From Vibrio sinaloensis (GTDB taxonomy: Bacteria > Pseudomonadota > Gammaproteobacteria > Enterobacterales > Vibrionaceae): 64,000 nucleotides of DNA. The notes under the pieces are model-generated. The model saw nothing but the letters and a program-made list of their open reading frames with translations, was not told where the DNA came from and made no database searches. Below, in pieces: positions 34,116 through 42,927 of this stretch. Where the stretch lies: the NCBI RefSeq assembly GCF_023195835.1, contig NZ_CP096200.1:682001-746000 (forward strand). The letters run 5' to 3'. Made by a program: the position numbers and the translations under genes. Position 1 is the stretch's first letter; every line of letters begins with the position of its first letter.

Positions 34116-34743
34116 AATCTTCCTTATTAGCTTTCCGCTCAGTATATCAGCCAGTGGAGAACAGCATAGCCCAGTCATTGGCGCTAAATGAAAGAAACAG
34201 CTTGGAGCAATCACCAGAGGGAATTATCGACGAGATAAACTCAACGCTAAGCCTGACCATTGAAGAACCATCGAGTTCGGGGTAGAAGGCAGTCTCTCCC
34301 TTTTGCCAACAGGAGAAACAAGGGAGAAACCGCCAAAATAGTGTTAGTCTCCAGCAAGCTTCTTAGCTTCGGAACGCATAAGGGCAGGTGCTGTGTTTTC
34401 ACCAAGCCCAGATTGACGTGGATTGGTAAAGTAGGAGACTCCCATAAAGTAACGCTCTAGATTAATGTATAATCATTGACCTAGGTGTCCACTTTTTCCA
34501 TCGCACCATTTTCGGATATGAAGTCCAACTGCTAAGCCTGGTATTTTTCAGCTTGGTTGAAGGCATGCACAGAGCTCTCTTCATTGGTTGTCCCAGCATA
34601 AGCGTTATAGTCACCACTGGCTTGGATTCATTTAATGACTGATAGAGATTGGAGTTTCATTGTTCCATCCCTTGTTTTGTTATGTATCTATACTATTTGA
34701 TAGTAGAGTGGATTTTTAGGTCATATAGCGCCAAGGAGTACTC
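34116..34743. other. Gene-free left edge of the accessory block, with a degenerate ORF
   Basis: This 628-bp gap holds no intact gene. On the minus strand, 34621 to 34481, a readable frame (ASGDYNAYAGTTNEESSVHA, then FNQAEKYQA, stop, QLDFISENGAMEKVDT, stop) is broken by an in-frame TAG. It looks like the remains of a coding sequence, possibly from a mobile element, but I cannot name the family. The AraC operator lies at the right end. Confidence 0.35.
34717..34733 (+). promoter_or_regulatory. Accessory-block operator, site 1 (araC self-control)
   Basis: TAGGTCATATAGCGCCA, the motif repeated at other promoters of this block. It overlaps the ribosome binding site of the AraC gene (CCAAGGAG), so binding would block that gene's expression. 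A weaker copy with TATTTGATA lies 23 bp upstream at 34694. Confidence 0.6.
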
Positions 34744-35715
34744 GTGTTAACTAACATTAATACCACTAGTTCCAGTAATCTTGTCCCATTTGTTCGGTAT
34801 TTTGAAAAACACAGAATTGAATGGAAACAGCTCGCGAAGGTGCATCAAATTCCAGAAGATTTAACCAGTCGTACTGTATGGCTGTCTTCACAACAAGTAA
34901 TGTCGTTCCTATTGGACATGATGCGCCATAGTAATAAAAGAGTAGGAATAGAAGTCGGAAAGCTAATAACTCTCGGTCAAATATCAACCTCGCTAGAAGA
35001 AAAGTTTAAGCAGTGCAATGACTTAGAGGAGGCGATAGTCGCCTTGATTAAGCTAATGCCGGAACTCAATAGTCACGTTGTTGTTTGGGTGGAGAAAATG
35101 GAGGGCCATTGGTATCTCTGTCATAGAGGAGCCTACCATCCTTCTACACCAGGCTTTGATCAGACAGAGTGGTTTCGATCTTTTGCTTTATTATCAATGT
35201 GCCGCTTATTTTTGGGGAAGGATTGGGTACCCGAACATGCCTTTATGAGCTTTTCTGAACACTTAACAAAAGGATTGCCCATTGGTTTTTCTAAAACAGC
35301 GTTTAGCTTTGGCCACCCTTTCGGTGCCATTAGGATAGATCTTGAGGATGATTTTAAGCCGATCCCTCCTTCACTCGAAGATGAAGTAGAGTGGTCGCAA
35401 CGGGTGAAACGTCTATCACAAACTTATGCCGTACTACCTTTTTTTAGTGTTGATTGGTTTGCTAAATTTTTGAGCATGTCCGCTCGAACACTACAGAGAC
35501 GACTAGCAGAGCATGGTTTATCCGTGAAGCAGTTGCGAGATGAAGCGAGAAGAGATGTCGCCATCCAATTGTTAACTCAAGATGGGCTCTCTCCTGACGA
35601 GACTTCTTGGCGATGTGGCTATAATGACTTGTCTAACTTTAATCGAGCTTTTCGTAGCTGGCTAAATATGACACCAGCACAATATCGTAGAAAGCATTTT
35701 CAATGCGCGCAGTGA
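34744..35715 (+). CDS. AraC family transcriptional regulator
   Basis: A 323-residue regulator. The first 200 residues resemble the arabinose-binding-like domain (PF12625) seen in OruR/ArgR-type AraC proteins. The C-terminal double HTH covers residues 220-318 (LSMSARTLQRRLAEHGLSVKQ, then CGYNDLSNFNRAFRSWLNMTPAQYR). The start codon is GTG, with AAGGAG five bases upstream. The gene converges on the amidohydrolase gene, with 21 bases between their stops. Its HTH is the best candidate to bind the 17-bp motif found here and in front of three other block genes; this is inferred. Codon use is more AT-rich (many AGA) than in the flanking core genes. Confidence 0.92.
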   Translation: MLTNINTTSSSNLVPFVRYFEKHRIEWKQLAKVHQIPEDLTSRTVWLSSQQVMSFLLDMMRHSNKRVGIEVGKLITLGQISTSLEEKFKQCNDLEEAIVALIKLMPELNSHVVVWVEKMEGHWYLCHRGAYHPSTPGFDQTEWFRSFALLSMCRLFLGKDWVPEHAFMSFSEHLTKGLPIGFSKTAFSFGHPFGAIRIDLEDDFKPIPPSLEDEVEWSQRVKRLSQTYAVLPFFSVDWFAKFLSMSARTLQRRLAEHGLSVKQLRDEARRDVAIQLLTQDGLSPDETSWRCGYNDLSNFNRAFRSWLNMTPAQYRRKHFQCAQ

Positions 35716-35736
35716 GTCTGCGCGCAGAGCTAGCAA

Positions 35737-37299
35737 TTATTTTTGTTCACGACGTATTGGTTGGCCTGCTTTGACCGTAGTATCGAGCTCAGTGTTGTTA
35801 ACGACAATCTCACCGTTAACTAGCAACCAATGAACACCAACAGCAGGATGATTTGGATCTTGATAGGTACCGACATCCGTGATGGTTTCAGGGTCGAATA
35901 CGACAATATCGGCGTCCATATTTTCTTGAATTCGACCTTTACGTTTCATTTGCGGAACAAAGTCTTCAAGCAACTGAGCTGGCATTAAGGTCATTTTTCG
36001 TAACGCTTCAGACATAGATAATAAACCACGTTCGCGAACATAAACTCTCAACACTTTGGCAAAGGTACCATTTGAGCGTGGATGAGAGAAAAGGTCTTGA
36101 GGTAAAGGCCATTCATCTCCCTCGTAGTTATCTACGTGACCTTCCTCATCCATATGCATCCAGAACATTTCATCAGACTCGATTAGGACATCTGGACTCA
36201 GAATTGATGCGTCAAGTTTAGCGAGATCTTGGGGATTATTTTCATCTAGAAAGTGCCAAACGATGAAGGTTCCAGGGTTGTTTTCCTGATAATCAGCGAG
36301 CTGCTCTTCAGTCATACGCTCTTTTCCGAGCTGGAAATTTTCTGCTGTTGAGCCCATACGCTCACGCCAACCTTCCCCTTGGAACATGGCTGCACCGACA
36401 ACGGTACTCGCCGCACCATAGGGATAAGCACCTACAGTAACGTTAATACCTTGATCTTTGGCTCTTTCGACCATTGGAAGAATAGTATCAATATCCTTGA
36501 GTGATGTGCTATTGATATGACATAAATGCATATGAGCGCCTGTGATCGCGGCATTGCCAATTAGCTCTTTTACCGCTTCAAAAGAACTTTGTGGTTCCGT
36601 GTTACTTGCATAACGCACATGAGTATATGTTGCGACACCGCGTTCTGCTGCTAATTCAGCCAGTGCGTAATATTCTTTCTGACCATGGCCCGGCGCATAG
36701 CCAGCATTAACTCCAATGCCTAAGCCACCTTCATCTAGGCCCTGTTCAATAAGTTTAAGTATTTTGTCTTGTTGTTCAGGGGTCGCGATGTCCATCTTCC
36801 AGTCGTCGCTAGATTGTGCTTGCTGAAAGTAAGTGGCTGTAGCCTTCGGTTCGGTATCAGTAAAAGTAGCGATGCGTGCATAAGTCCAGCCTGCAGCAGC
36901 ACCGTAGTTAAGAGGCAACCCTTTCTCGCCTTGTGTCTCATACCAGTCACTGATTGGTAGAACGCCTGATTCTAGCTCTAGCATTGTCGTAACCCCCTGC
37001 ATTGCTTGCATGCGATAGTCGCCAATGTTTTGTCCGTGGGCATGAACGTCAATAAAACCCGGTGCAACAACCTTGCCTGTCGCGTCGATGGTTTTGTTGC
37101 CACTGATAGCGTCGGTGGTAATGGTCACGATTTGATTGTCTTTAATACCAACATTGGCGATTGAATCAAACTGTGTTTCAGGGTCAATAACTCGCCCATT
37201 CAAAATGACGGTGTCATAATCTGCCGCCAAAATGGCCGGTGACAAAAGTGCGAGACTAAGAAGAGAGGCCTTTTTTATTGCCGAATAGGAATATTTCAT
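35737..37299 (-). CDS. Exported D-aminoacylase-like amidohydrolase
   Basis: A 520-residue amidohydrolase of the N-acyl-D-amino-acid deacylase group. The metal motif DVHAHGQN lies near residue 85, followed by the QGVTTMLELESG block seen in D-glutamate deacylase-like members, and HLCHINSTS and DADIVVFDP later. A Sec signal peptide ends near residue 26 (ALLSPAILAADY), so it acts in the periplasm; classical D-aminoacylases are cytoplasmic. It would cleave N-acyl groups from D-amino acids or similar amides. Two copies of the block operator lie 112-151 bp upstream. Exact substrate uncertain. Confidence 0.85.
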   Translation of the reverse strand: MKYSYSAIKKASLLSLALLSPAILAADYDTVILNGRVIDPETQFDSIANVGIKDNQIVTITTDAISGNKTIDATGKVVAPGFIDVHAHGQNIGDYRMQAMQGVTTMLELESGVLPISDWYETQGEKGLPLNYGAAAGWTYARIATFTDTEPKATATYFQQAQSSDDWKMDIATPEQQDKILKLIEQGLDEGGLGIGVNAGYAPGHGQKEYYALAELAAERGVATYTHVRYASNTEPQSSFEAVKELIGNAAITGAHMHLCHINSTSLKDIDTILPMVERAKDQGINVTVGAYPYGAASTVVGAAMFQGEGWRERMGSTAENFQLGKERMTEEQLADYQENNPGTFIVWHFLDENNPQDLAKLDASILSPDVLIESDEMFWMHMDEEGHVDNYEGDEWPLPQDLFSHPRSNGTFAKVLRVYVRERGLLSMSEALRKMTLMPAQLLEDFVPQMKRKGRIQENMDADIVVFDPETITDVGTYQDPNHPAVGVHWLLVNGEIVVNNTELDTTVKAGQPIRREQK

Positions 37300-37410
37300 T
37301 GGTTCGTTCTCATACAGTTAAATAAGGTTTATAAAATGCTAGTAAAGCAATCATCTTCATTGATTAACTAAATAGACACATGACTATTGATTTGCTCTGT
37401 ACGAAGAATA

Positions 37411-37427
37411 TAGGAGATCTCGCCTCA
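37411..37427 (+). promoter_or_regulatory. Accessory-block operator, site 2a (amidohydrolase promoter)
   Basis: TAGGAGATCTCGCCTCA matches site 2b at 13 of 17 positions and lies exactly 23 bp from it, so the two form a tandem direct repeat of two helical turns, as AraC proteins usually need. Confidence 0.5.
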
Positions 37428-37433
37428 CCAAAG

Positions 37434-37450
37434 TAGGTCATTTCGCGTCA
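37434..37450 (+). promoter_or_regulatory. Accessory-block operator, site 2b (amidohydrolase promoter)
   Basis: TAGGTCATTTCGCGTCA shares TAGGTCAT and the final CA with sites 1 and 3. It lies 135 bp before the amidohydrolase start and is read against that gene's direction, as at the other target promoters. Confidence 0.6.
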
Positions 37451-37750
37451 TCATTTAATATTAGGTACCTGTCTGTGCAGGTGTGCGATACTAAAGACTA
37501 TTTCGCTTAACTATCAAGGAACACAAAGCCTGGTATGGGCTCACATTGCGAGATAGGATGAAGATGAAGCAGTAAGGGCGACGCCAGCTATGGGCGTACT
37601 TATCAATTGAGGATGAGTTAACTTTTTTACTTTCGACAGCAGCAACCGAAGTTAAGAGCAATGGAATGGAGTATCTCACCCTTGTTGTATAGGCATGTTG
37701 TACTGAATAAAGATGGACAAACACCATTCTAGCTGGACAATCGAAACGAC

Positions 37751-37773
37751 AAAGCCTCACTTCGTGAGGCTTT
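37751..37773 (-). terminator. Rho-independent terminator of the beta-lactamase-fold gene
   Basis: AAAGCCTCAC / GTGAGGCTTT with a 3-base loop, 25 bases after the stop codon. Confidence 0.8.
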
Positions 37774-37798
37774 GTATAATAAAGTTTTAGGTTCGCTG

Positions 37799-39235
37799 TT
37801 AGAAGCCAGCCATAAGTTTCGCTGCATTGCGCAGGTAGCCAGGAGAGTGGTCAATTCCTGTAACGCTTTCATCATTACTCGCCAAGCCAAAGTAGATCGC
37901 GCAGAAGTCTCGCTTAGGATCGACATAGATACCTTGTCCCATGTTGCCATGTTTGAACATTGCACCATCGGCGAAAGCATGATCCCATTGCGCAGTATTT
38001 AGCTTTGGGGTTTCGCCGAACCAACGTTTGCCATACTCAAGCTCTGTCGAGATTTTATAAGCTTCTGGGCTGCCCATGTTCTGGATTAATCGTAACAACT
38101 CATTATCAACAATCTGTTCGTTGCTCACTGCTTGGTAACTTGGTGTGTAAATCATTGCATAACGAAGCATATCTTCTGCGGTGGTGAAATTGAGTCCACC
38201 ACCAATAGGTGTACCATCAGGGGTCAAACCGACAATAAACGAGTTTTTGGCCCCAATTTTAGACCAAACGCGCTGATTCCAGTAATGCTGCCAAGACATA
38301 TTTGTAACGCTTTCAACAACTAACACCAAAACTTGAGTGTTAGCTGTGGAGTAACGGAAGCGCTCTCCTGGCTTTTCGTTTGGTAATGGCTGAACTTCTT
38401 TTAGAAGCTCTCTCCATTTGTGACTACCCGCTGGCGATTCAAAAATTGCGGTGAAGAAAGTCGACATCCAAGACTTAGGGTTACTTAAGCTTTCAAAGGT
38501 CTCTTCATTATCTAGCGCAGGAGCCATATTCATTGTGTCTTTGACACTCACCTTGTCCCAGGCACTGCCCTTAAGCTCTGTCACGTAATGAGAAACGGGT
38601 TTAGATAAGTCAATTTTGCCGTCTTGCGCCAACATAGACACCAGTAGTCCAGCTGTGGTTTTAGACGCTGACATCCACACATGAAAGTCGGTCGGATTCA
38701 TACCCGGATAGGTTTCAAACACGACTTTACCCTTATGAGCCATCATCATGGCTTGTACTTGTTTTGGACCAGTAAGATAGCGCTCTAGTGTCGGTGTCTT
38801 CGAACCATCATGAGCAGTAAACGAAACGTGTTTAATTCGCTCATCTATTTGACGCTCTAGAGTTGATGGGGCGAAAGGTGGCGCTACAACACTAGATTTA
38901 AAGAATGATGGAATGTTCAGGTTATAGTACACCGAATCATCATTCCCCGACTGCCAGTTTCTAAAGCCAAATCTCTCTGTTGCGCCATTAACAAAGTCAA
39001 TCGATTGTGGCAGCTTCCAACGCGCCATGTTGCTCTCTACCTCTAGCGGAGAGATTGCCGTACTGATATCTGATATGGCTGGCGCTTTCGTCGGTGCTGC
39101 GATGGCATTCGTTGCAGACGCTAATCCCATCCCAACCAATCCAGCAGTCGCTCCAACAGCGGCTCCTTTGCTCATAAAGTTTCGGCGGCTCAGGTCGATT
39201 TCATTTTGTGTGTGATTTGATGTTTGTGTTTTCAT
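37799..39235 (-). CDS. Tat-exported beta-lactamase-fold serine hydrolase
   Basis: A 478-residue serine hydrolase of the class C beta-lactamase/DD-peptidase/esterase family. The active-site SxxK is SASK (in VWMSASKTTAGLLVSML, near residue 188), and the second motif is YSTAN (FRYSTANTQVL), in place of the usual YxN. The third motif is likely HGNMGQG near the C-terminus. Twin arginines in DLSRRNFMSKGAA at residues 15-27 mark a Tat signal, so it works in the periplasm. It is probably an esterase, D-aminopeptidase or amidase and not a resistance enzyme. An operator copy lies 56 bp before the ATG. AGGAG precedes the start. Confidence 0.85.
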   Translation of the reverse strand: MKTQTSNHTQNEIDLSRRNFMSKGAAVGATAGLVGMGLASATNAIAAPTKAPAISDISTAISPLEVESNMARWKLPQSIDFVNGATERFGFRNWQSGNDDSVYYNLNIPSFFKSSVVAPPFAPSTLERQIDERIKHVSFTAHDGSKTPTLERYLTGPKQVQAMMMAHKGKVVFETYPGMNPTDFHVWMSASKTTAGLLVSMLAQDGKIDLSKPVSHYVTELKGSAWDKVSVKDTMNMAPALDNEETFESLSNPKSWMSTFFTAIFESPAGSHKWRELLKEVQPLPNEKPGERFRYSTANTQVLVLVVESVTNMSWQHYWNQRVWSKIGAKNSFIVGLTPDGTPIGGGLNFTTAEDMLRYAMIYTPSYQAVSNEQIVDNELLRLIQNMGSPEAYKISTELEYGKRWFGETPKLNTAQWDHAFADGAMFKHGNMGQGIYVDPKRDFCAIYFGLASNDESVTGIDHSPGYLRNAAKLMAGF

Positions 39236-39564
39236 GCTGTTTCTCCTGTTTTCGAACTGAGCTCATTATGCTTCGGTAGAGAAACCTTTTTTAGGTCATT
39301 GTATGCCAAACGACCAACAAACAGTATTTCAGTACTTTCCTCTTTATAAGGTCACTTTACTCTCACTCTTCAGCCTACTCGGCCAACTGCCTCTGACCTC
39401 TATACAGCCTGCGCTAACTAGCTTCCGTGGCAATTTCTAACGTTTCACCTAGATTCAGTGGATCAGATCCTACAAAGGCGAGTACGCCATTTAGGCACCT
39501 TTAAATAGACTGATGATATTGCATATTCCACGTCCGGATTCGGACTATTGATTAGAGTTGTATT
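39236..39564. other. Divergent promoter region, beta-lactamase-fold gene and ThrE-like exporter
   Basis: A 329-bp gap without a gene. It holds operator site 3 at 39292 and a weaker partial copy (AAGGTCAC) at 39348. It must contain the promoters of both divergent genes. Confidence 0.55.
39292..39308 (+). promoter_or_regulatory. Accessory-block operator, site 3 (beta-lactamase-fold promoter)
   Basis: TAGGTCATTGTATGCCA. In the gene's direction it ends 56 bp before the start codon, almost the same distance as at the small exported protein gene (57 bp). Confidence 0.6.
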
Positions 39565-40857
39565 ATGTCTAGAACTGAAATAATGACTTTAAGAGACAGC
39601 AAGAGTGCAGCTGATTTAGAATGTCTTGCTAGAAGCTCAAATTATAGCGATGAAGAAATATGGGAGGTACTTTCTCTAGTAGGAGTTTGTGCTCACAAAT
39701 ATGGTTCTTCCTCCATTCGGATTGAAGGGTATCTCAAGTCTCTTGCTGAACTTTTTGGGTATAGAGCTCAAGTTGAGAGCTTCCCTGACCGATTACAAAT
39801 AGCTCTGACAAGGATTGATAATGGCTGGCAAAAAAGTGATTTTTTTCAAGTGGCTGGAGATGTTGAATTACACAAACTGTCTTTGATTGGAGACGTTGTC
39901 ACCAAGCTAGAAAAAGGTAGGGTATCTCCTGCCGCTGCGGTACGACACCTTAAGGCCATTGACACAATGCAACCAGAATGGGATTCGCATCTGGTGCTGT
40001 TCGGCTATGTCGCTGTTGCATTTGGATTGCCAGGCATAATTGGCGGCAACTGGTTAGATACATTGTTTGCGTCAATGCTGAGTACTCTTATCTTTTTTAT
40101 CGTCCAATCCAGTTCTCGTTGGAATGTGCGGTTACAGCCTTGGATGCCATTAGTATCGACTTTTTCGGTTGGTCTACTAACGGCTGTTGTCAGCACCTGG
40201 CTGCCCGCAATAAATAGCGTCATCGTTATTGTTTCGGCGACAGCAATTATACTGCCAGGGTACTCCATTAGTTTGGGGGTCAGTGAATTGGCGGCGACTA
40301 GATGGCGGTCTGGCTGGGTTAATTTATCAATGGGTATGCTCTGTATGACAAAAATGGTCATAGGTGCGTGGGCGAGCCTTAACCTTGTTTACCCGTCGAT
40401 AGCGTTGTCAGTGTCTCCATATAGTGTACCTTCGGTCAATGAATACTGGTTTGTTATTCTGTTCCCAATCTTAATGGTGGGGCTGAATGTGGTATTCCAA
40501 GTCTCAAGACGAGATTTTTTGTGGGTAACATTGGTCGCTGTGATTGCATTTGCCGTTTACTTAATGGGAGGCAAGTTGTCTGGTACCCATTTAGGCGCAT
40601 TATTGGGCAGCCTTATCGCTGTGTTGTTGGCGGGGGAATGGTCGACGCGTACAGGTCGACCTAGCTCAGTAATTATGGTTCCAGTTGTAGTGATGCTAGT
40701 TAGTGGAACAATAGGCTTTCGAGGTCTGATTAATATCACTGATGGAGATGTGACGCTTGGCTTAGAGCAGTTTTCACAAACCTTTACCGTGGCGCTGTCA
40801 ATCCTGTTTGGATTATGGATGGGTCATCGGCTAAGAAAGCCACTAATGACGCTGTGA
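39565..40857 (+). CDS. ThrE-type threonine/serine exporter, single-chain form
   Basis: A 430-residue membrane protein. The N-terminal 135 residues are soluble and carry the ThrE start pattern (VGVCAHKYGSSSIRIEGYLKSLAELFG). About ten helices follow. The first set holds the DUF1212-like part with LPGYSISLGVSELAATRWRSG, and the last 150 residues match the DUF3815-like half (LGALLGSLIAVLLAG, VMLVSGTIGFRG). Both halves are fused, as in Corynebacterium ThrE. It would export small hydroxy amino acids by proton exchange. It is divergent from the Tat-exported hydrolase. Confidence 0.8.
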   Translation: MSRTEIMTLRDSKSAADLECLARSSNYSDEEIWEVLSLVGVCAHKYGSSSIRIEGYLKSLAELFGYRAQVESFPDRLQIALTRIDNGWQKSDFFQVAGDVELHKLSLIGDVVTKLEKGRVSPAAAVRHLKAIDTMQPEWDSHLVLFGYVAVAFGLPGIIGGNWLDTLFASMLSTLIFFIVQSSSRWNVRLQPWMPLVSTFSVGLLTAVVSTWLPAINSVIVIVSATAIILPGYSISLGVSELAATRWRSGWVNLSMGMLCMTKMVIGAWASLNLVYPSIALSVSPYSVPSVNEYWFVILFPILMVGLNVVFQVSRRDFLWVTLVAVIAFAVYLMGGKLSGTHLGALLGSLIAVLLAGEWSTRTGRPSSVIMVPVVVMLVSGTIGFRGLINITDGDVTLGLEQFSQTFTVALSILFGLWMGHRLRKPLMTL

Positions 40858-41051
40858 TCTGATCAAGTTTATCGATAAAAAACAAATTAACTGAACATAA
40901 GAAGCACCATCCGTTCTCGTTGAACCATTAACCTAAGCAACAACATTACCACCACCGAAATCTCAATCCCTTGCTCATGAGATATATACAGTTGCGCTTT
41001 CTAGCCGACAATCAAAACTTGGTGGTATGATTAAAATACGAGTTTACAACG

Positions 41052-41975
41052 ATGGTGCTCTACATGAACTTCAGCCTAGAACAACTCCTTGCGTTTGTGA
41101 CTGTTTATGAACAATCATCACTTAGCAAAGCAGCTGTGCAACTGAACAAACATCGCACGACTATTGGTCAGGTTGTCACCAACCTTGAAGACCAACTGGC
41201 AGTCACGCTATTTGAGCGACTTGGCCGCTCTGTTGAAGCGACAAAAGATGGACATTTGCTTTATCACTATGCCAAGCAAGCGATTGAGCACGCCAAAGTG
41301 TTTGACAAGGTTGCGCTCAGTCTCTCTTATGGTGAGTTAGAAAGAGTGACTATCGCGTATCCCAGCTATATCCCACACAACGCCCTTCTAAAAATACGCC
41401 AGCAGCTCTCAAAGGCATTCCCGACCATGAAAGTCGATTTTCTGGTTCGAGATAGGGAAGATATTAGAACCGGAGTATTAGATGGTAAGTATCATTTTGG
41501 CATTGCTAACTCACATCAAAGCACCGCGATACAAAGCTTAGATACTGTATTTATCGGCCACACGGAGTTTGTACCATTCGTAAAGAAAGGTGGAAAAATC
41601 CATCAGGTAACAGAATCCCAGTTGTTATCTACTTTGCAAACGGAAAGACAGTTCGTCCTGCGCTCGCTCATTGATGAAGGGTTGGGCGATAAGTTCATTG
41701 TTTCTGGCAATAATGAAGATGTCGATCAATTGGCACTGGCCGTAAAACTGGTTAAGGATGATTTAGGTTGGGCATGGCTTCCGTTGTCACTTTCTCAATC
41801 AGAGCTTACGGTGGATGAACTGGTTCCGCTGAAAATACCTCAATTGTTGGAAGGGTTCAAAGTACCTCTAACGTTATGCTGTCAACATTCAAATATTTTG
41901 AAAGATGTTAAGCACGTTATTGTACCTGCAATCGAAAGATACATTACGGAGTTTAAGAAAAGTCAAAGCAAGTAA
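41052..41975 (+). CDS. LysR-type transcriptional regulator
   Basis: A 307-residue LysR protein with HTH FSLEQLLAFVTVYEQSSLSK and LNKHRTTIGQVVTNLE at residues 6-65, then an effector domain. No strong ribosome binding site is seen at either ATG (41052 or 41064). It lies within the accessory block, between the exporter and the small exported protein genes, all on the plus strand. No copy of the AraC motif lies in front of it. Confidence 0.9.
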   Translation: MVLYMNFSLEQLLAFVTVYEQSSLSKAAVQLNKHRTTIGQVVTNLEDQLAVTLFERLGRSVEATKDGHLLYHYAKQAIEHAKVFDKVALSLSYGELERVTIAYPSYIPHNALLKIRQQLSKAFPTMKVDFLVRDREDIRTGVLDGKYHFGIANSHQSTAIQSLDTVFIGHTEFVPFVKKGGKIHQVTESQLLSTLQTERQFVLRSLIDEGLGDKFIVSGNNEDVDQLALAVKLVKDDLGWAWLPLSLSQSELTVDELVPLKIPQLLEGFKVPLTLCCQHSNILKDVKHVIVPAIERYITEFKKSQSK

Positions 41976-42075
41976 TGTAGGCGAAGCTCTATCCTGCTAG
42001 TAGGAGTTCCTCATCCACTATATCTATATAGCCATTTCACCTATAGTAAAACTAGGCTTGAACTAGGCAATGTTT

Positions 42076-42092
42076 TGGCGCTAACTGACCCA
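42076..42092 (-). promoter_or_regulatory. Accessory-block operator, site 4a (small exported protein promoter)
   Basis: In gene orientation TGGCGCTAACTGACCCA; its complement TGGGTCAGTTAGCGCCA fits the block motif. It forms a tandem direct repeat with site 4b at a 22-bp period, with 15 of 17 bases identical. Confidence 0.65.
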
Positions 42093-42097
42093 TCGCC

Positions 42098-42114
42098 TGG
42101 CGCGAACTGACCTA
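42098..42114 (-). promoter_or_regulatory. Accessory-block operator, site 4b (small exported protein promoter)
   Basis: In gene orientation TGGCGCGAACTGACCTA, ending 57 bp before the start codon. Its complement TAGGTCAGTTCGCGCCA is the closest single copy to the consensus of all sites. Confidence 0.65.
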
Positions 42115-42137
42115 TTTGAGGTATAACGAAATCCGTA

Positions 42138-42169
42138 TAGTTCTCCACAGATTCAATACAGGAGAACTA
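42138..42169 (+). promoter_or_regulatory. Hairpin that would cover the ribosome binding site
   Basis: TAGTTCTCC at 42138-42146 and GGAGAACTA at 42161-42169 are a perfect 9-bp inverted repeat with a 14-base loop. The second arm contains the GGAG ribosome binding site of the gene starting at 42172, so folding would hide it. Confidence 0.55.
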
Positions 42170-42171
42170 AC

Positions 42172-42927
42172 ATGAAACTACTCACTAAGACATTAATTGC
42201 CACTGCCCTAGTTGCCTCTAGTGCACAGGCTACATTCGCCCAAGATGCTGTAACAGATAAAATTGATCCTTCTGATCTTACTCAAGTCAGCACCTCAGGA
42301 TATGTGGGCATGAATAACCAAGGTGATGTTAAACTTTCGGCATCGTTCGGGTTTGGCATAACCGAAGGCCAAATGGGAATGGCAACGATTGAAGGGACAA
42401 TTGACGATGATGGTAATTACAGCGATAGCCGTGCACAGTATTTCCAAGTTTTTAATACTGGCAATAGCATTGCTCCAAAAGCAGCAGTCTCACTAGACAT
42501 TATCGATAATACAAACTTTACAACTGCTGCAGTCGGCGCGATTTCGATGTTCAACCCAGGAATTGAAAACTTTGTAATATTCGGCCGTGTAGGTGTATTA
42601 GCTGGTCAATATGATAAGGGCTTTACTCAGGCAATGGGAGAAACAGACAAAGATATAGTGGGCGGGATGGCCGCCGCATATTTATCCTGGAAAACTGGAG
42701 CCGATGGCACCTACCTTATGTTCTCACCGGAGTACACCTACATGGACGGTAGTATTGAAACTTCGACACTAAAAACTTCACTAACGGTGGGTACACCTTT
42801 GTCGGCGGATGGTAAGCGATGGGGACAATTTAAGCTTGAAAATACCTATGGCAGCATGGAATCGTCTAAAGCTAAGATTGATATTGATGATACGGTTGCT
42901 TGGGCTTTTTACAAAGTATATTTCTAA
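42172..42927 (+). CDS. Small exported protein of unknown function
   Basis: A 251-residue protein with a clear Sec signal peptide (MKLLTKTLIATALVASSAQA, cleavage near TFA-QD). The mature part is rich in Gly, Ser, Thr and aromatic residues, alternates polar and non-polar residues, and ends in WAFYKVYF, an aromatic C-terminus as in outer-membrane beta-barrels. A small barrel or surface protein is a reasonable guess, not more. A ribosome binding site (AGGAG) lies in a possible hairpin, and a pair of AraC-type operator sites lies upstream, so its expression is probably tightly controlled. I do not recognise the family. Confidence 0.75.
   Translation: MKLLTKTLIATALVASSAQATFAQDAVTDKIDPSDLTQVSTSGYVGMNNQGDVKLSASFGFGITEGQMGMATIEGTIDDDGNYSDSRAQYFQVFNTGNSIAPKAAVSLDIIDNTNFTTAAVGAISMFNPGIENFVIFGRVGVLAGQYDKGFTQAMGETDKDIVGGMAAAYLSWKTGADGTYLMFSPEYTYMDGSIETSTLKTSLTVGTPLSADGKRWGQFKLENTYGSMESSKAKIDIDDTVAWAFYKVYF

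Follow-up and report, generated by a model that had tools for sequence, protein, structure and literature searches.

Introduction

The question raised by this locus is whether a 17-bp sequence, repeated before several genes of one accessory block in Vibrio sinaloensis, is the operator of a regulator encoded in the same block and, if so, what it does at each promoter. The block lies in a stretch of 64,000 nucleotides (contig NZ_CP096200.1, positions 682,001 to 746,000), hereafter the window, and contains an AraC-type regulator (araC, at 34744), an amidohydrolase, a beta-lactamase-fold hydrolase and a probable outer-membrane beta-barrel, here called the porin (Table 1). An earlier note on this DNA had described six sites of one pattern and proposed that they define an AraC regulon. 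The comparison reported here supports one regulon around this protein: very probably the motif is the binding site of the AraC protein, which would be a class II activator of the amidohydrolase, the beta-lactamase-fold hydrolase, the porin and a divergent gene that has since decayed. In the proposed mechanism the protein would bind the 17-bp site with its TGACCTA half placed against the –35 position and, once bound, would recruit RNA polymerase.

A Composite Promoter Before Four Genes

In the direction of its target gene, the 17-bp site reads TGKCRYNAAnTGACCTA and has 15 defined positions. A motif scan of the window recovered the five complete copies at the places and on the strands that the earlier note had given them. 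With up to three mismatches to TAGGTCANTTNGCGCCA, the window holds seven matches, compared with 2.07 ± 1.49 in 100 shuffled sequences, one of which reached seven; the two matches outside the described sites carry three mismatches each and are background-like. In the whole 4.17-Mb genome only five places come within one mismatch of the motif and four of these are in the block, while the fifth, C1:737056, was rejected as a further site; it falls within a long open reading frame (ORF) that looks like lnt (apolipoprotein N-acyltransferase). Plain counts of this kind are circular, because the consensus was derived from the sites themselves, and for this reason the spacing to the –10 hexamer and the comparison with relatives are the more independent tests.

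The distance from the motif to the –10 hexamer, read along the target gene, is exactly 21 nt at all four promoters, and since the –10 begins 21 nt after the site, the constant half TGACCTA touches the –35 position. The site thus has what defines a class II activator site: one orientation, a position adjoining the –35 and a fixed distance to the –10. When 33 motif sites were taken from the window and from 19 related stretches, with the promoter playing no part in their choice, TATA stood exactly 21 nt away in 17 of them and at 20 or 22 nt in three, and over the remaining offsets between 5 and 59 nt it occurred six times; these sites are partly related by descent, and therefore no probability is claimed for the spacing. 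A search of the genome for the motif, 21 nt and a –10 together, allowing two mismatches, gave five matches, four of which are the promoters of the block, and the reversed control gave none. Two other places were considered as further sites and rejected, namely C1:1389183, which falls in a long ORF of the opposite strand, and C1:965845, which is intergenic (the flanking ORFs are presumably fabG-like and acyl-carrier-protein-like), has two mismatches in the motif itself and is probably a chance match.

The gap from motif to ATG is 57 bp at the porin and 56 bp at the beta-lactamase-fold gene, as previously claimed, and 134 bp lie between motif and start at the amidohydrolase; the activator-like placement proposed for the three target genes is supported. 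The pairing of sites, which the earlier note had considered suited to AraC dimers, holds at the porin promoter, where two copies lie 22 bp apart, but not at the other three promoters, which have a single site. Tandem half-sites of the AraC type were found at the porin promoter only, with a degenerate counterpart of the distal copy, likewise offset by 22 bp, in one relative (G094), and over 31 sites no offset stands out for a conserved second half-site, direct or inverted. The partial copy at 37411 was over-read. It does agree with the neighbouring site at 13 of 17 positions, but with the consensus at only 10 of the 15 defined ones; it overlaps the –10 hexamer of the amidohydrolase promoter, and it is not conserved in the three closest relatives, whose sequences at this offset match 5, 7 and 4 of 15.

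Table 1. Regulators, target genes and promoter elements of the block, in coordinates of the window.
Feature	Position	Strand	Basis or remark
Remnant of divergent beta-lactamase-fold gene	34347..34660	–	Start region, then the final ~100 codons; interrupted by stops and a frame change
–10-like hexamer TAGTAT, divergent promoter at araC	34690..34695	–	21 nt from motif
Motif copy, araC upstream region	34717..34733	+	Motif scan; promoter geometry serves the divergent remnant on the – strand
AraC/XylS-type regulator, 323 aa, GTG start; proposed motif binder	34744..35715	+	HTH_18
Amidohydrolase, N-acyl-D-glutamate deacylase/D-aminoacylase type; candidate target	35737..37299	–	PRK09061; signal peptide by eye
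–10 hexamer TATATT, amidohydrolase promoter	37407..37412	–	21 nt from motif
Motif copy, amidohydrolase promoter	37434..37450	+	Motif scan; counterparts at gaps 116-124 in G094, G025, G036
Beta-lactamase-fold hydrolase related to 6-aminohexanoate-dimer hydrolase; candidate target	37799..39235	–	PF00144; 4gb7, E 8.9e-23
–10 hexamer CATAAT, beta-lactamase-fold hydrolase promoter	39265..39270	–	21 nt from motif
Motif copy, beta-lactamase-fold hydrolase promoter (weakest copy)	39292..39308	+	Motif and composite scan
LysR-type gene adjoining the porin	41064..41975	+	HTH_1, LysR_substrate
Motif copy, porin promoter, distal	42076..42092	–	22 bp from proximal copy
Motif copy, porin promoter, proximal	42098..42114	–	Gaps 53-57 in the six closest porin loci, the window's included
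–10 hexamer TATAGT, porin promoter	42136..42141	+	21 nt from motif
Probable outer-membrane beta-barrel (porin); candidate target	42172..42927	+	12 strands as read from the model

Regulator and Site in Related Genomes

The genus sample comprised 196 genomes, 45 of which have a homologue of the AraC protein (counted at E ≤ 1e-20); in 11 of them the homologue has at least 45% identity and is here called close. The strict composite of motif, spacer and –10 was found at 41 places in 34 genomes, that is in 33 of the 45 genomes bearing the regulator and in 1 of the 151 without it, and 37 of the 41 places are within 8 kb of an AraC match. Of the four places farther away, that in the exception lacking a regulator match (G139) stands before a truncated homologue of the beta-lactamase-fold gene, one in G025 (contig C109) closely resembles the site before the beta-lactamase-fold gene in G036, and two, in G044 and G008, look like chance. 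In an order-wide sample of 295 genomes the composite is present in all seven AraC-bearing genomes and in 5 of the 288 others, six of the seven (G044 included) being also in the genus sample. In the seventh, G299, which belongs to another family, the regulator, the porin with a site at 53 bp and the amidohydrolase lie side by side. If the –10 is dropped and the motif alone is used, prediction becomes poorer (14 of 45 AraC-bearing genomes against 14 of 151 others). Good composite matches in the genome and its relatives are confined to the block and similar loci, one doubtful place apart, and related bacteria that keep the AraC protein tend to keep the site at the same promoter distance.

The porin loci follow the same pattern. 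Homologues of the porin occur in 68 of the 196 genomes of the genus, and 30 loci were examined. The six closest, the window's included, all have a close AraC protein and a site 53-57 bp before the start, whereas the other 24 have no site within 300 bp (one has a partial copy at 315 bp). A close AraC protein is missing from the genomes of 22 of the 24, so that all 22 loci examined in genomes of that kind are site-less. For the amidohydrolase, 30 loci out of 45 matches were examined. Sequences resembling the site lie upstream in 11 of them, in some cases weak and in five at a distance of about 800 bp, and 19 have none; the homologue in G152, a genome without a close regulator, is 86% identical and has no site. 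Another ORF lies between gene and site in three of the loci with a distant site; one of these ORFs is a DUF3299 protein (Pfam) and the other two resemble it only at their ends.

Recognition Helices of the AraC Protein

The regulator has the C-terminal double helix-turn-helix of its family (HTH_18, E 1.9e-21, 76.5 bits against a cut-off of 33.6), and its model shows both helix pairs. Its N-terminal domain scores 26.1 bits with Arabinose_bd (PF12625), the domain of the VirS-like subgroup, just below the cut-off of 27.6; many close homologues carry that label, and the model resembles CdpR (5chh) and the N-terminal domain of VirS (8rcw; TM 0.72 by target length). It is the only match at E ≤ 1e-20 in its genome, and a scan of genome contigs with the protein as query found no relative. 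The earlier suggestion that this is the most likely protein to bind the motif is supported by the comparison, in which site and helices appear to change together.

In fact, over 31 regulators the second recognition helix is nearly invariant (mean frequency of the commonest residue 0.95) and the first one varies (0.77), in parallel with the constant and variable halves of the site. The second helix-turn-helix would read TGACCTA, and the distal half, which is GCGCCA in the clade of the window and GTGACA in a sister clade, would be read by the more variable first one. Nine of 12 close regulators have a site in the stretch examined, and in 9/9 an S-x-R in helix 1 goes with CGCCA; in the sister clade, 19/19 regulators combine T-K-R with TGACA. 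Among six additional regulators that were compared with this rule, the three having K-R next to TGACA agree with it, one with STR has CGCCA sites plus a GTGACG copy, one with TPR has CGACA, an intermediate form, and one with STR and TGACA departs from it. The distal half thus mostly changes with helix 1, and the correlation may reflect a single evolutionary change.

The Site Before araC and a Decayed Divergent Gene

The copy before araC had been read as an operator for self-repression covering the ribosome binding site. It does abut the AAGGAG, but the overlap is one base (34733) and the site does not cover it. Its geometry is that of a target promoter for a gene on the – strand, with the 21-nt spacer and a 56-bp gap, which speaks against self-repression as its main role. 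On that strand we observed a decayed beta-lactamase-fold gene (34347-34660) of which the start region and the C-terminus are kept and most of the middle is lost; in tblastn with intact homologues it has 59-63% identity over the last ~50 residues and 38-53% over the ~50 before. The start codon of the remnant lies 56 bp from the site, as in the intact targets. In Photobacterium sp. DA100 an identical 17-mer stands 56 bp from an intact divergent gene, and araC and the beta-lactamase-fold gene diverge over one common site in G169, G189 and several sister-clade genomes of Vibrio. Taking together the remnant, the divergent layout in relatives and the intact gene of DA100, the site before araC is best explained as the promoter site of the lost divergent beta-lactamase-fold gene and not chiefly as a self-repression operator. 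As a separate observation, the araC copy beside the site on the large replicon of DA100 (L242:10074-10917) is broken into two frames.

That the site is nonetheless a true autoregulatory operator, possibly alongside its role at the divergent promoter, is the most probable of the alternatives, though we regard it as less likely than not. It abuts the ribosome binding site and is still intact in the window although the divergent gene has decayed; in G094 it persists 13 bp before araC, where tblastn found no remnant of a divergent gene, and it is because of this persistence in both genomes that autoregulation can be entertained. However, among the 12 close AraC loci (the 11 genus genomes and G299) only four show a site, counted from 14 of 15 positions upward, within 300 bp upstream of araC, and three of the four have the divergent gene, intact in G169 and G189 and as a remnant in the window, G094 having the site alone; in the other eight the best match before araC is 9 or 10 of 15. 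In several of these site-less loci (G025, G036, G130, G149, G299) araC lies downstream of the porin in the same direction, so that it could be raised together with the porin.

The LysR-Type Neighbour of the Porin

A less probable alternative is that the LysR-type protein at 41064, and not AraC, controls the porin and perhaps the block, the motif being a LysR site or irrelevant. This protein is the direct neighbour of the porin in the window, and of the 24 motif-less porin loci, 17 have a divergent LysR homologue in the same ~3.8-kb stretch. Those LysR-linked loci, however, have no motif within 300 bp of the porin, and in five of the six motif-bearing loci the stretch contains AraC but lacks LysR. 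Among all 30 loci, LysR and motif occur together in the window alone. LysR boxes are usually symmetric, and the motif is not. A search by eye and with 8-mers for a box that the window has in common with the LysR-linked porin promoters found nothing clear. Control by LysR instead of AraC is improbable, even if the LysR protein is a possible second regulator that may add an input at the porin of the window.

A more far-reaching reading, which we put forward tentatively and with more doubt than confidence, is that control of the porin family has changed hands between two regulators, LysR-type in many Vibrio lineages and AraC-type with the composite promoter in a few, and that the porin of the window, whose genome has both, would integrate two signals; a full-length, effector-sensing AraC protein would work from a single 17-bp site, and the change from S-x-R to T-K-R in helix 1 would have moved the target from GCGCCA to GTGACA across the regulon.

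Finally, a recent promoter duplication or dispersed repeat without regulation, as four promoters within 8 kb might suggest, is very improbable and appears already contradicted, since in pairwise comparison the four 21-nt spacers agree at no more than 1 to 9 of 21 bases, whereas the motif, the length of the spacer and the –10 are conserved, and composites with other spacers occur in other genera.

Several observations weigh against activation by the AraC protein through the composite promoter. Twelve of the 45 AraC-bearing genomes have no strict composite, and G182 and G008 have a close AraC protein and yet a porin homologue without a site. Two composites lie far from their regulator and look like chance, one in G008 (C1:1062127) and one in G044, 189 kb away, the latter counted among the 33 and the seven above. 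The reversed control gave 11 matches against 41 in the genus sample and 8 against 12 in the order sample, and any probability calculated from sites of related genomes, which are not independent of one another, is an overstatement. In the window itself, the site of the beta-lactamase-fold hydrolase is weak and its –10 is CATAAT, and a second AraC protein in G036 departs from the helix-1 rule, with STR beside a TGACA site.

Candidate Target Genes and Proposed Function

The amidohydrolase belongs to subfamily PRK09061 (781.9 bits against a cut-off of 340; named there "amidohydrolase family protein"), its best solved relatives are D-amino-acid deacylases, with the N-acyl-D-glutamate deacylase 3gip at the top, and it is predicted to be of the N-acyl-D-amino-acid deacylase type. 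The model of the porin has the 12 strands of the KdgM/NanC-type barrels. By sequence it does not belong to that family: neither Pfam nor NCBIfam gave a match at E ≤ 0.001, and the PDB sequence search gave none at E ≤ 1. The regulon would serve the uptake and the cleavage, outside the cytoplasm, of an N-acylated or amide-linked compound, a function to which we give slightly less than an even chance.

Other features were observed around these genes. In the block, 39565-40857 encodes a ThrE-like threonine/serine exporter in which a single chain carries both ThrE domains, and this gene has no motif site, and no tRNA was found in the window. At one locus (L067, G182) a CobW-type GTPase gene and an amidohydrolase share a divergent site-bearing region, and the former is possibly a metal-supply gene in the regulon. 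DcaP-type porins lie near further AraC homologues in L063 (G036) and L076 (G008), that of L076 with a site in target orientation.

Relation to Known Systems

AraC at araBAD uses 17-bp half-sites arranged as direct repeats about two helical turns apart, the proximal half touching the –35. The 17-bp sites, the direct repeat at the porin and the position of the proximal half at the –35 recall that arrangement; the difference is that the second half-site is present at the porin promoter only, the other three having one. The class II promoters (defined by a site overlapping the –35 in excerpts of PMC12052159) of MarA, SoxS and Rob in Escherichia coli likewise have a non-palindromic site in one fixed orientation, but the regulator described here differs from those proteins in its complete N-terminal domain, in the local extent of its regulon and in the sequence of its site.

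The closest solved relative by sequence and fold is CdpR (5chh), which with VqsM and GliR forms a group of AraC-type proteins of Pseudomonas aeruginosa; GliR is among the NCBIfam matches of the regulator, far below the cut-off. CdpR is reported to bind RGWYNNNWNCGGCCA, which has the layout and length of GGTCANTTNGCGCCA and thus the same build as the site of the window, and at one target of GliR a motif of that protein spans the –35 region (both as quoted in excerpts of PMC8151288). The PDB sequence match is, however, limited to the DNA-binding half, and the targets of the CdpR group are unrelated to those of the window. The exact site, the 21-nt rule and the regulon were not found in the literature searched by motif strings, gene combination and QhpR sites. 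The oxidative-chitin pathway, whose OngB is a related deacylase, was for that reason considered, and was rejected, its regulator being of the MurR/RpiR type in the available text of PMC9537276. The regulon itself is new, but the kind of system is already known.

Significance

An orphan regulator of the AraC type thus gains a precise and predictive site, with motif, orientation and promoter distance. This site finds the likely regulon in unannotated genomes, and it would put an unnamed outer-membrane barrel, a putative deacylase and a putative amide hydrolase in one pathway. The two main site types, found with two helix types, provide a natural series for the change of specificity in AraC proteins, and the porin loci offer a case in which one porin family may be under LysR or AraC control.

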